From: a virus
Strand: one strand, 5' to 3'
DNA: 32,302 nucleotides
IMG/VR virus record: IMGVR_UViG_3300049043_000107
Span: 1 to 32,302 of that record
Part shown: in pieces, positions 14,507 through 31,760 of the stretch
Numbering within the stretch: position 1 is the stretch's first letter
How the letters are laid out: every line of letters begins with the position of its first letter
Notes under the pieces: model-generated
Database searches by the model: none
Seen by the model: the letters and a program-made list of their open reading frames with translations, nothing else
What the model was told of the DNA's origin: nothing
Position numbers and translations under genes: made by a program

Positions 14507-17500
14507 AATTAATCTTATGTATCATGTTTTCAGCCTTGGTTATGTAATAGTCATAATTGATTCCTGCTGTAGATACATCAGTGGTTTTTGGTAAATAGTT
14601 GCACACCGTGCACACCCAATCACCAGCTTCCACTTGTGCTATATCAGGAGCAGTGCTATCACTAGTGACATTTTTAACCTTTAAAGCTTTTCTCCTGTTG
14701 TAGAAACGTAATAACAGATTATTGTACACCTTCTTTTTAGAATTTTCAAAAGAATAATCTTTTTTGATAATTTCACACATTTGTTCATAGGTGTATCCAC
14801 CAAAGTGATCATTGGTTTCTATACCTTCTTTGATCCAATATGTTTTATTATCCCACCAAGGCTCAGTCTGTTTCCAATCTTTCTTAATAGTTTGGAGAGT
14901 TGTTCTATGCTAATATTTACTCTTTACGAACTATACCCCTCATAATGAAAATCTTTACTGGCTTTTTGCCTCAAGCAAAAGTCATAGATGTTAGAATGAT
15001 TCCTAATAGTATGCTCAACAGATATATTATTAAGAAAATATTGTTCAGAGCCATTTGGGATAATTCTACCTGACTTATTTTATAAAGCTCAAAATCCGTA
15101 ACAAAATCTCCTTTCTTTTTAACTTCTCCATTTGTTTTAATTGCAATATAGTCATTTACTGTGGAAAATATGATTTTTTGATAGTCTGTTCTCTCAAGCT
15201 CATATCCTGTTAGGTTCATCCACCACTCATTTATAGTTTTCATAGCTTCTAAACTAGATTTCTTAATTCTAACAGTGATACCATCTGTATTAGCACTTAT
15301 TACATTGATTCCTCTCATCTCATATTCCTCAATGAGCATCATCAAGCTAAGTTACCCTGTGATGGTGGTGAACATTATTAAGTCTATATCATAATCCAGG
15401 ACAGCATATAGGAGCTTTCCATACACACTATTAACAGCGAGCTTTAGAGCACCTACAATTCCCTTAATTTTCTTATCAGTTTTAGCTAAAGGCTTGAGAT
15501 CCAATCTCTTATCAAACATTTTTCTATAACCAACAAGAAACTCCTTACCCAAATGCTTGAGGTATAGCGTCCATTGTTAATAATAATAGCTGGATAGTAT
15601 GCTTAACCTATAATCTTTCAATTATAGCTGGACTATATCATCATTTAACAACCTTTTTCCAAACAAACCCATACATTGATGGTTTGTAACCTGAACAAAC
15701 TGAATATATCTGCTGCCATTGTATAAGAAGGATTTGTTTTTGTAATTTCATTTACAGAATCCCATCTTCTTACAAATTCTCCATCTTTGGTATACTGATC
15801 AATATAATATACAGTAGTAGCTTTTGAAACTTTTTCTGCCATAGTTTTCGTTGCATCAGGATTATCTTTCCAATAAGTGTGACTTACTTTTTGTCTTTCT
15901 TTTGGATCTTTAAATCTTTTAATCTGAGCTTCACTTAGCTTTTTCTAGTTTCTAAAGAAACTATACATCCTGTTTCTGATTCCTCTCTGAAATTATATCC
16001 TTTATTTCTATCAGTACATTTATAGACTTTCTGCCAATATAACTCTCGTTCTTTTAACTGTTCAATATCTGTATATTCTAAAACAAAATATTCAAAGTTA
16101 TTTCTTCCATATTTATGCCAAGCATTTATAAAATGTTCATTTTCGTCTTTGCTTTTCTTATTTAAAAGATTAATATGTTGACGAATTCTCCTATAAATAC
16201 ACTTAGCTTTTCCTATGTAAACTTTATTGTTTACTTTGTTTCTTATACAGTAAATTCCAGTTCGGTTCAAATGTTCTTTTCTATTCAATTTCATGCTACA
16301 AATGTATGCAGTTAGATGGATAGAACCAAGACACTTGTGTTAATTAATTGTTAAATGTTCCCTGTTTAGTCTCTTGAACCTTGATCTATTTCACTATAGA
16401 TCCTTGGCTGCGGATTGTCCAATCTCAATCTTTTTACGCATACCTGAGTAGTTACTTCAGCCACTATATGTATTTCTACTATAGTTTGGTAGATTAAGTT
16501 CTAAGGAGGTTCCCGTCAATTTAAGGAATTTTAGTTTCGCCATATTGTTAACGAAACATCCCAATCAATGATTTCATACTCATCGTTAGCTTCAAATACC
16601 TTTGGAGCATTTTCTGAATGTAAACCACCCTTAGCAAACGTATATGTATTACCAAATAGAACAACGCTTCCCTTGAAATCATCATTCATTCCTAAGGACA
16701 TTTTCTTTATCCTATTGAGAAAGCTGACCATTTCTTTTGTCTTAAAGCCAACATAATCAGCAATACAGTTACTTTACATATACATTTTTTCTGAAATATC
16801 CTTTCTTAGGAAGGTCTTTGTATGTTATTTTCTTCTCCTCACAATAGTATTTCTTGATGATTTCATCCCCAATCTTACTATCTGAATAATTAATGCAGGA
16901 AATGCCAAATTCAGTTTCTATATCTTCTCTGAGCTCAATTTTATTATCTCCTTTATACAGGGGATGCTCTGTTTCACCTATGGTGACTAAATAGAACTGA
17001 TAAGTGGCTTCCACATCATTAATACAATATTCTGTTGTAAGACGAAGTTCTTCATCTGTCATCTCTTCCTTGTTGTGATTTATAGGCATTTCTTCTATGT
17101 TCTCTAAATCCATTTCAAACTCTAGCCTTTTAAGAGAAATTCTGCGGTGTTTATTGTCGAAATGCCAAATCCTAAATAAATCAATCTGCTTTAGAGACAG
17201 AGAAGCTTCACTATACTCAGGAAGCAACTCATAATTTGCATCATGAATTACATCCTGAGCTTTCTGGTGTATCCTACTGCATATCTCTAAAGCAGAATAG
17301 TTCATGCCAAAAGTGATTATTACGTAACACCCACTCAATCACTTGAGAATCAAAGCGTAAGTTATTATATCCTACCCAGTAGTAGTCTTTATATTCTTCT
17401 GTGAAGGTGATAAAACTATCTCTAAATCATTCTGGTGAATATTCACCTTAAATTCTCTAGGCTTTTCCCCAGGAATGAATGCTACTATAAGGAAATATTC

Positions 17501-29410: not shown

Positions 29411-29633
29411 TTATTCATCATCATCCTCTATTGGAAAGACAGAATTCCATTCTTCTTGTGTTATTCCAGACATCAGAAACTCCCTCTCTTACTTTTGGAA
29501 TATGAGGAATAATGTTTTGTATAAGCTCTCCAGAGCTTCTTCTATTTTCCACTCTTGTCAACTGTTCTTCTGATATGTCTATATCTAGAGTGTGTGTTTT
29601 ACCAGATAGCTGGCTTGTGCGTGTAATTTTCAT
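29411..29633 (-). CDS. Small conserved phage protein (about 73 aa, one frameshift)
   Basis: From 29633: MKITRTSQLSGKTHTLDIDI, then SEEQLTRVENRRSSGELIQN and IIPHIPKVRE. One indel near 29475 restores FLMSGITQEEWNSVF and an acidic end at 29411. The order S-G-TLDIDI - GELIQN - REFLMSGIT-EEW is that of a small protein found across many Bacteroidota phages, often near the left end of a gene block, with no known role. It lies directly downstream of the structured RNA ending near 29660. Confidence 0.65.
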
Positions 29634-29659
29634 AAACGATTGATTATCAATTAATTAAA

Positions 29660-29870
29660 AAATACTCCCTCTGCACACAGGTTGTAATAATACTACTGCA
29701 TCTTTAGCATGTGGTTTTACACTCTCATACTATTACAACCTTTTACATTCTTATGGGTTGACTAACTTACTATCCTTATCGCCTAATACACGGGCTGAGC
29801 GATTTACCCGTTGTCTAGTAATTTGTTGTTGATCAACCCATAAGAATGCATGTGTGCATTAGGGAAAATA
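29660..29870 (-). ncRNA. Structured RNA: three-way junction with inner pseudoknot
   Basis: Three nested perfect inverted repeats define it. The closing stem is TGCACACA/TGTGTGCA (29672-29679 with 29851-29858). Arm 1 is AGGTTGTAATA/TATTACAACCT (29679-29689 with 29731-29741). Arm 2 is a 16-bp stem (29746-29761 with 29833-29848). Almost no unpaired bases lie at the junction. Inside arm 2, ATCGC/GCGAT (29778-29782, 29799-29803) and ACGGG/CCCGT (29790-29794, 29807-29811) interleave as an H-type pseudoknot. On the minus strand the closing stem is followed by GAGGGAGTATTTTTT, a plausible 3' end. No long reading frame is present. The strand is inferred from the U run and neighbouring genes. Confidence 0.7.
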
Positions 29871-29882
29871 TTTTAAAAAAAT

Positions 29883-29899
29883 GAGGATGAGAAGTCCTC
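29883..29899 (-). terminator. Short terminator between two RNA domains
   Basis: GAGGA (29883-29887) pairs with TCCTC (29895-29899). On the minus strand ATTTTTTTAAAA follows. It would end a transcript coming from about 30.45 kb. Confidence 0.65.
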
Positions 29900-30457
29900 T
29901 GTGTTGTTAACGATTTATTTGTTACTCTTTCATTCCTTTCTCAAGGGAACAACACATTTTCCCCTCTCCAACTCAGTTGTAACTCATACCTGCTCTATCA
30001 TAAAGACGAGGGATGTATGCATGCTCTAATTAGACTATTACAACTGCTCACTCTTTGGGAGCTGATTACATTCCTATTGAGTTTAAGCTAACCAGTAAAC
30101 TGTTAACATACACTTGTTGGTTTTACATATAATCAGGTGGTTTCACATCTTATCATCCTATAGTTAGGCAAAAGAGCAAAATAATACTCTTAGTAATAAG
30201 AAGTCTTTATATCCACGTGAGAATGGTGCATTACGTAACACCCTAATTTATCCAACTTGCAGGTGTCATGGCTGTCCTCCAGAGCTTGGTCCAAAAAGAA
30301 CACAAGTTAGAGTTAGGAATAGTCATTAGACTTGGCGAGGTGCAGGCTGACTTGCCTGAGTGTTCATCCCTATACACTCTACGTGATCCAATAGAGAACA
30401 ACTCTATTTCTCATCATCCAGGACTGGACTATCTGCATGTTAGGCAGAACGTATCTT
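29900..30457 (-). ncRNA. Candidate large structured RNA (about 560 nt), no gene visible
   Basis: No convincing minus-strand protein is found here, even allowing indels. The segment lies between two terminators. It is crowded with local hairpins: TGTGTTGTT/AACAACACA (29900-29908, 29948-29956), CAGTTGTAA/TTACAACTG (29974-29982, 30038-30046), GGTG-CATTACGTAA-CACC (near 30225-30243), CAGGC/GCCTG (30343, 30354), GAGTGT/ACACTC (30358, 30374), ATAGAG/CTCTAT (30391, 30402), TCCA/TGGA (30417-30428) and TCTGC/GCAGA (30432, 30444). The five hairpins from 30343 to 30448 follow one another almost without gaps. Size and context recall the large ornate phage RNAs GOLLD and ROOL, but I see no proof of membership. 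A + strand frame at 30268-30459 is probably chance. Confidence 0.55.
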
Positions 30458-30464
30458 AAAAAAC

Positions 30465-30475
30465 CCTGTTACAGG
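30465..30475 (-). terminator. Short terminator after the 30479-30741 gene
   Basis: CCTG-TTA-CAGG forms a small hairpin. On the minus strand the context is GGGCCTGTAACAGGGTTTTTT. It starts four bases after the gene's stop. The ten bases GGGCCTGTAA recur near 30811 after the next gene upstream. Confidence 0.7.
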
Positions 30476-30478
30476 CCC

Positions 30479-30741
30479 TTATAACATTCTCATCCAATCT
30501 GGTGTGCCATCAAAAATGGTATATGAACAATCATCAACCAATCTTCTATGATAACTTACTCTATAGATTAAAGGTGATATTCTGTCCACTCTTTGTATGA
30601 CACAATTAGGAAGAAAGTTCTCAACCCACCATTTATTGGTATCCCTAATAGATTGAGCTAATGATGCTTCTCTAAAGATGTCATATTTACATTAAGCAAT
30701 TCATTCTGTTGCTCTAATGTTATTTCAATCTCTTTTACCAT
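30479..30741 (-). CDS. Small hypothetical protein (about 87 aa, one frameshift)
   Basis: From 30741: MVKEIEITLEQQNELLN. After an indel near 30685 it reads KYDIFREASLAQSIRDTNKW and WVENFLPNCVIQRVDRISPL, ending CSYTIFDGTPDWMRML at 30479. It has a helical first half and a strand-rich second half. No family is recognised. It is an isolated gene between structured RNA and another small gene. Confidence 0.5.
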
Positions 30742-30768
30742 AACAATGTGTTTAGCTGTATACAGCCA

Positions 30769-30830
30769 TTTTGGTGAAAAGAAATAGTGGTGAGAACCAG
30801 ACCCCATTACAGGCCCAGTTCACCAAAATT
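30769..30830 (-). terminator. Long hairpin at the end of the 30807-31055 gene
   Basis: ATTTTGGTGAA (30769-30779) and TTCACCAAAAT (30820-30830) are perfect inverted repeats of 11 bases with a 40-base loop. The upstream arm lies in the last codons of the gene. No U run follows, so it may be an mRNA-end stabilising or processing hairpin rather than a terminator. Confidence 0.45.
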
Positions 30831-31055
30831 AGTTACAGTGTGTGTGTACTCTATAAGATCAACACTACCAGGAGCTTTATCTCTAAGCCTACTAAAGTAA
30901 GCAGTGGCAAAGGTGTTGTAGTTGTTAACCTGCTCCATAGAGTCACAGGATACAGCTTTGTCTTTGAGTCTTTGCTTAAAAGACTGGTGAGCTTCTTCTA
31001 ATACATCTTGAAGAGTAGTAGAGATGATGATACGTTGAGTATATGTGAGGTTCAT
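30807..31055 (-). CDS. Small hypothetical protein (82 aa)
   Basis: An intact frame from 31055 (MNLTYTQRIIISTTLQDVLE) to 30807. It is helical, with EEAHQSFKQRLKDKAVSCDS and NNYNTFATAYFSRLRDKAPG, then a short strand end (NFGELGL). The last codons form one arm of a long hairpin. It is the only gene between two structured non-coding stretches. No family is recognised. Confidence 0.5.
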   Translation of the reverse strand: MNLTYTQRIIISTTLQDVLEEAHQSFKQRLKDKAVSCDSMEQVNNYNTFATAYFSRLRDKAPGSVDLIEYTHTVTNFGELGL

Positions 31056-31065
31056 AAAATTGGTA

Positions 31066-31760
31066 GTTTAGCTCTCCTAAACCAGAGATAAATGGTGACC
31101 CCTGTAGATATATCATTTACCATAAATATGTTATATTGTTATGCAAGGATTTCATTTAAGGAATGTATGTCTTCCAGCCCTTGAACCGTATTAACGTCAT
31201 AACTAACCCTATTTACCCAATGAATTCTAGCTGACTCACAACACTAGAACTAAAAGTACATTTCATCCACAGAACGCACTAGCCTTAACACCTGCTAGTA
31301 AAGAAAAGCACTCTCAACTTCTTTTAACAGTTGAGCAACTCTCACATGACCAGTTCCTATTCCTAAACTTAGCAGAAGGAACACACTGCTTTAAAAACGT
31401 ATGCAATGAACCAGATAGTCTTAAACCCATAAGAATTTGCAATTATAGAAACCCCTAATAGAAAACTTCTACGATTACATATCCTTGTTCTTTTGTGCAT
31501 TGAATGTGTTTTTTGGTGAATTAATGCTATATGTATATCAATAGAAGAATAAATTGATGAATTGCTATTTGATGGCTAAATGCAATGAAGGAGGACACAC
31601 CCACTCTCTAACTAACAGATAATCAATGAGTTATGAAGGAAAATGGAACGAATTTCTTCAATTAATTCCCTCCCTTCGGACTAATTCATTATTCCCCACC
31701 CATATATCACAGAATGAAGAGAATGTGTCCGCATTACACGAACACATTCTTTCCTGTGGA
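31066..31760 (-). ncRNA. Candidate structured non-coding region (about 700 nt), no gene visible
   Basis: No frame of useful length exists on either strand, and the minus-strand translation does not look protein-like even with indels. Local hairpins are frequent: GAATGTGT/ACACATTC (31721, 31742), GTTCCT/AGGAAC (31353, 31377), CTCAACT/AGTTGAG (31313, 31329), ACTAGC/GCTAGT (31278, 31294), TTCTAG/CTAGAA (31225, 31244) and GTTTAG/CTAAAC near 31066-31082. AACCCATAAGAAT at 31424-31436 is identical to one arm of the 29.7-kb three-way junction (29835-29847). ATGCAATGAA occurs twice, near 31401 and 31580. A long 5' leader of the small gene at 31055, or an independent RNA, are both possible. Confidence 0.45.

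Follow-up and report, generated by a model that had tools for sequence, protein, structure and literature searches.

A structured RNA element with a three-way-junction fold in a non-coding block of a crAss-like phage fragment

The non-coding block at positions 29900 to 30457 of an IMG/VR virus record raises the question of whether it encodes a structured RNA and, if so, what such an RNA would do. The window, the whole analyzed stretch of 32,302 nt, is a 32-kb IMG/VR virus fragment of crAss-like phage origin. Its minus strand carries the replication genes, namely, a primase, DnaB-like and SNF2-like helicases, a uracil-DNA glycosylase, and DnaA C-terminal and ParB domains. These genes have distant matches among annotated crAss-like phages (~30% identity for the primase) and close ones in the IMG/VR contigs L002 to L008 (67 to 69% identity for a helicase), which show long synteny with the window. 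Frameshift errors are numerous in the contig, where 12 of 14 conserved genes extend over more than one frame, and the small genes at 31.5 to 30.5 kb, immediately upstream of the block, are likewise frame-broken.

Several features of the fragment lie apart from the block. Positions 1 to 770 of the plus strand, opposite to the phage genes, hold part of a gene for NanE (N-acetylmannosamine-6-phosphate epimerase), and a CACCCC-rich repeat comes before it; this end of the window is possibly chimeric or host derived. Within 14.4 to 17.5 kb, a GIY-YIG-like ORF (15935 to 16294) separates two parts of one gene that is a single 652-aa ORF in L002, and it possibly represents an intron or an inserted homing gene. 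tmRNA genes occur in near relatives of the window phage (L004, 2896 to 3317; L005, 2328 to 2739; L007, L008, and L026; L038, 885 to 1274). The tmRNAs of these phages have long tags ending in ALAA and are flanked by genes matching the window at 17.4 to 18.0 kb; no tmRNA was detectable with RF00023 or ARAGORN in the window or its block.

No credible ORF is found within the block, as the sequence-only reading had stated, although this absence alone is weak evidence here because of the frameshift errors of the contig. A frameshifted protein is possible at 30457 to 30247. Two minus-strand terminators had been described as the boundaries of the block. The downstream hairpin was confirmed, and the upstream site is only a weak one, drawn by eye and missing from the list of the terminator scanner (Table 1). 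The run of short hairpins at 30343 to 30448 can be drawn, yet these sequences fold no better than shuffled ones (z of -0.8 on the minus strand and -1.2 on the plus strand). The entire block is also at chance level (z of -0.8 and -1.6, respectively), so that folding energy alone leaves it unproven. Annotated phages yielded no matches in a DNA search with the block region, and searches with the neighboring 82-aa ORF also found none. The location singled out by the earlier reader is correct, but its justification fails statistically.

The structure contained in the block is recognizable by comparison with a second copy of the same element, which starts 32 nt past the block edge. The region of this copy 2 (29660 to 29860) folds far better than chance (z of -7.1), and the end of its structure is retained in the syntenic relative L024 (TATTACA..TG.GTGCAGAGGGA.TA). 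A pattern built from the L024 end matched 41 IMG/VR stretches, most of which share the architecture AATGCACC..CTCAC-TTCCCAAGG-GTGAG-CAGTTGTAATA-[variable]-TATTACAACTG-AGTGCA-GAGGGA. At least 104 distinct copies were extracted with a two-part pattern, with a second IMG/VR pattern search giving at least 120 rows. Two later scans added further copies of a subtype with an extended P2, bringing the collection to at least ~130.

The copies show a core fold consisting of a three-way junction of the helices P1, P2, and P3 with a hypervariable P3 loop. The alignment of 76 copies contains 91.6% paired cells and shows changes on both sides at 17 of 28 pairs, distributed over P2 (5 of 5), P3 (9 of 11), and P1 (3 of 5). 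Structural covariation in related phages, which the sequence-only reading had named as a check, is present, with 132 doubly changed cells compared to 28.8 ± 4.7 after shuffling (0 of 500); control structures slid along the alignment reach at most 58. The UCCC of the P2 loop and the GGGA following P1 are about 97.4% complementary in the 76 copies but nearly invariant, which makes a pseudoknot between them likely rather than proven. By eye, a CCC located 5' of P1 replaces the UCCC as the partner of GGG in L028, L036, L052, and copy 2 of the window. Invariant unpaired bases are the AA before P1, the A between P1 and P2, the AAGG in the P2 loop, and the A between P3 and P1.

Copy 1, the copy inside the block, belongs to the P2-extended subtype. 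The motif of this subtype, TGCACC..CTCACGTGGATATAAAGACTTCTTA..AAGATGTGAAACCACCTGATTA..TAATCAGCTCCC, recurs in other phages, which argues that the extra P2 domain of copy 1 is not random. A 29-copy alignment of the subtype, excluding the window and restricted to the conserved blocks after removal of the variable segments, shows both-side changes at 17 of 35 pairs and 53 doubly changed cells compared to 12.9 (0 of 500). The block's own structure is thereby supported by an alignment other than the discovery one, with a few copies shared between the two. A frameshifted protein as the source of the core signal was rejected, since the substitutions in two separate sets of relatives keep the stems intact. 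Neither the block nor the element in relatives matches any of the 4227 families of Rfam 15. The block almost certainly contains a member of a new structured RNA family, and the earlier suggestion of a possible new class of structured phage RNA holds, given the strong covariation in two alignments and the lack of an Rfam match.

Table 1. Features of the RNA locus and its surroundings in the window; R1 is a covariance model applied with filters off, and its E-values are rough according to the tool's own warning
Feature	Positions	Strand	Basis or remark
Next gene, 70 aa, phrog_20898-like	29421..29633	-	ATG 29 nt past conserved 3' end of copy 2
Copy 2, outside the block	29657..29868	-	R1 24.4 bits, E 6.9e-5; inverted repeats I1, I2
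Terminator-like hairpin between the two copies, downstream bound of the block	29883..29899	-	GAGGACTTCTCATCCTC + ATTTTTTT
Copy 1, elaborated-P2 subtype, inside the block	29952..30240	-	R1 34.1 bits, E 1.3e-7
P1 3' strand GUUGGA	about 29972-29967	-	One mismatch and one extra base
P3, CAGUUGUAA.. with ..UUACAACUG, variable loop	29974..30046	-	R1 model and covariation alignments
P2 end-loop UCCC, proposed pseudoknot with GGGG 29964-29961	30057..30060	-	Complementary, near-invariant in relatives
P2d hairpin, CUGAUUA 30136-30130 with UAAUCAG 30068-30062	30062..30136	-	Complementary in relatives
P2b/P2c hairpin	30137..30216	-	P2c covaries, 3/6 pairs
P2 5' strand CUCAC, pairs with GUGAG 30051-30047	30217..30221	-	5/5 pairs covary in relatives
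P1 5' strand UGCAC	30226..30230	-	Covaries in relatives
Hairpin cluster of the sequence-only reading	30247..30457	-	Chance-level folding; no relatives found
Weak terminator-like site after upstream gene	30458..30477	-	GGCCUGUAACAGGG + UUUUUU, 4-bp stem, by eye

Both copies score well above the best unrelated R1 score elsewhere in the window, 11.3 bits. Copy 1 can be aligned with L098, L116, L037, L052, L064, and L073 across the P2 extension, an additional 165-nt domain within P2. In this domain, P2b is formed by GUGG (30216 to 30213) and CCAC (30140 to 30137) and P2c by CUUAUU (30200 to 30195) and GAUAAG (30154 to 30149), and P2d shows double changes from C-G to A-U in 4 of 32 copies. The mismatch and the extra base in P1 of copy 1 may be a contig error. 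In copy 2, the arms of the P2 hairpin measure 21 nt, and a CCCU/AGGG pairing extends P1 in place of the pseudoknot. Within this hairpin (29811 to 29774, minus strand), ACGGG/CCCGU and AUCGC/GCGAU could form an H-type pseudoknot, as judged by eye.

A crAss-type large terminase (phrog_6681) is encoded in all 13 R1-bearing contigs tested, compared to none of 14 control genomes. The family seems to be restricted to a subset of the crAss-like phage order, since seven named phages lack a credible match: R1 gave none on phi14:2, crAss001, cr4_1, cr52_1, Dulem virus 42, and SJC03, and a match of 16.4 bits (E of 0.036) on cr115_1 was taken as chance. Species-representative genomes gave eight pattern matches, none with the full motif, and annotated phages searched with the consensus halves gave partial matches at chance level only. 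A contig usually carries one to three copies at one locus. The element and the terminase gene occupy opposite strands, 3 to 25 kb apart, in all 11 large contigs in which the positions of both could be established, and the element is oriented so that its transcription would lead away from the terminase. Two further observations concern the surroundings of the locus. The intergenic stretch 31519 to 31708 of the window is conserved in G001 and G002 (66% over ~120 nt) and directly precedes the point at which the phages with the RNA locus (G002 and the window) and the locus-free G001 diverge. Phage GroEL genes are found near the locus on the other strand in L033 (6097 to 7662) and L067 (3372 to 4937), with E-values of about 1e-140.

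The gene context indicates the probable role of the element. With ORFs called by length only, coding sequence around the copies amounts to 93.9 kb in the sense and 10.8 kb in the antisense direction. Between the 3' end of the element and the next ATG ORF, the most frequent spacing is 25 to 49 nt (20 of 91 copies, compared to 1 to 8 in other 25-nt bins). Terminators within 200 nt downstream are depleted (3 of 81 loci compared to 53 of 460 random positions), and the genes that follow are diverse, forming 36 clusters among 47, which is more in keeping with a leader of general use than with a riboswitch specific to one metabolite. Because of the sense coding, the ATG peak, the scarcity of terminators, and the diversity of the next genes, the element is probably a structured, cis-acting part of the 5' leaders or intercistronic regions of early mRNAs. 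Here, the gene block diverging from the terminase is inferred to be early from its content and its divergence from the structural block. In the proposed mechanism, the element would be transcribed within the leader or an intercistronic region of an early mRNA and would act in cis; the compact RNA knot would set the processed 5' end, the stability, or the translation of the next early gene, and the variable P3 and P2 inserts would be interchangeable modules that either bind factors or are merely tolerated. Counter to a leader function, an ORF is found at a distance of less than 50 nt for only about one-quarter of the copies, and many are located in non-coding stretches of 0.5 to 1.7 kb beside other modules.

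These other modules and the inserts reveal a modular organization. The P3 inserts are hypervariable, with 77 clusters among 94, and they move between scaffolds, since 20 of 25 insert-sharing pairs have similarity in neither flank. In one copy, the P2 hairpin contains an ORF for a GIY-YIG-like endonuclease (L024, 1100 to 1891). Another scaffold, ACTCTCATCC..CAAGG-GTTGCAA-CCTTG-TGAGAGT, whose UUGCAA loop is palindromic, occurs at L034 6788 to 6926 and in 34 other copies and covaries at 6 of 13 pairs (0 of 500; alignment A3). Of 94 loci, 30 have this second scaffold ahead of the element. Hatchet ribozymes with scores of 78 to 82 bits (L047, 8591 to 8727; L073, 5635 to 5767; L079, 6387 to 6553; L091, 46 to 208) are located 1.0 to 1.5 kb upstream of the element on the same strand in four crAss-like phages, and none was found in 21 other records scanned. 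As a tentative model, fixed three-way-junction scaffolds with interchangeable inserts and the second scaffold, sometimes after a Hatchet ribozyme, might jointly form or process a regulatory RNA controlling early infection, encoded at the beginning of the early gene block. If this is true, both the RNA class represented by the modular system of the Crassvirales and its mode of action would be new.

A rather unlikely alternative to the cis-acting leader is a free trans-acting large ornate RNA similar to GOLLD or ROOL, in which the whole locus would be a single multimodule early RNA, possibly oligomeric. Such an RNA would fit the long non-coding loci with several copies, the P3 inserts common to unrelated flanks, and the second covarying module, whose palindromic loop could engage in kissing interactions. 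Copy 1 has terminator-like sites on either side and could end as a free RNA because of the terminator-like hairpin that follows it, and an intercistronic RNA processed for trans action would be expected to show a similar orientation and placement. The number and order of the modules differ among loci, however, and both the depletion of terminators past the element and the clustering of ATGs 25 to 49 nt downstream count against a free transcript. The element is a module of ~110 to 350 nt, usually present one to three times per locus, often preceding a start codon and followed by few terminators, and in this it resembles an mRNA leader more than the large ornate RNA of the sequence-only reading. 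The suggested check with the Rfam covariance models gave no GOLLD, ROOL, or other large-RNA match. The GOLLD and ROOL models found nothing in the window at the gathering score, nothing up to an E-value of 10 over 29600 to 31500, and nothing in the loci of 30-odd relatives. With no tRNA in the window and a few relatives having one within several kilobases, membership in these two families is not upheld.

It is doubtful that the conserved junction and loop form the active site of a catalytic RNA, self-cleaving or other, or the pocket of a leader that senses a ligand (riboswitch). The compact and putatively pseudoknotted junction with its invariant unpaired bases and the Hatchet ribozymes upstream on the same strand in four phages would suit such a function, but Rfam ribozyme and riboswitch models give no matches and the downstream genes are mostly unrelated to one another. 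A mobile or homing-target (intron-like) element with an RNA fold incidental to DNA-level spread is very improbable: the GIY-YIG-like ORF within P2 of the L024 copy, the absence of the locus from G001, which is syntenic with L024, and the shuffling of inserts among flanks are outweighed by compensatory base changes in the copies, which show that RNA pairing is selected, by the lack of conserved ends and target duplications, and by the location of all copies at one locus in the contigs tested whole.

The crAss-like phages rank among the most abundant phages, and little has been established about their early-gene regulation; no report of a structured RNA in these phages was found in the open-access texts searched. 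With a covarying element present across many of them and a model for its detection, regulation by early leaders becomes directly testable. The loci also show the Hatchet ribozyme, a ribozyme with an unclear biological role, in a natural setting. What is new is the RNA family, with no related Rfam family, and the job of a cis-acting leader would itself be of a known kind.

Among the systems already described, the phage RNAs GOLLD and ROOL form cages, are often found near tRNA islands, and have no known function (PMC12286853). The element resembles them in being phage encoded, structured, and non-coding, with variable and conserved parts, and differs in its size, with modules of 110 to 350 nt in contrast to 600 to 800 nt or more (PMC12286853). 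It is furthermore located upstream of genes and outside a tRNA array. The Hatchet ribozyme (RF02678) shares the loci and the strand of the element in four phages but is a separate unit, and RF02678 never matches the element itself. The predicted architecture of the element is similar to that of exonuclease-resistant viral RNAs (xrRNAs), in which a junction is combined with a hairpin whose loop pairs immediately 3' of the closing stem. In the element, the pseudoknot would be made by a different hairpin, and cmscan indicates no sequence relation to the xrRNAs.
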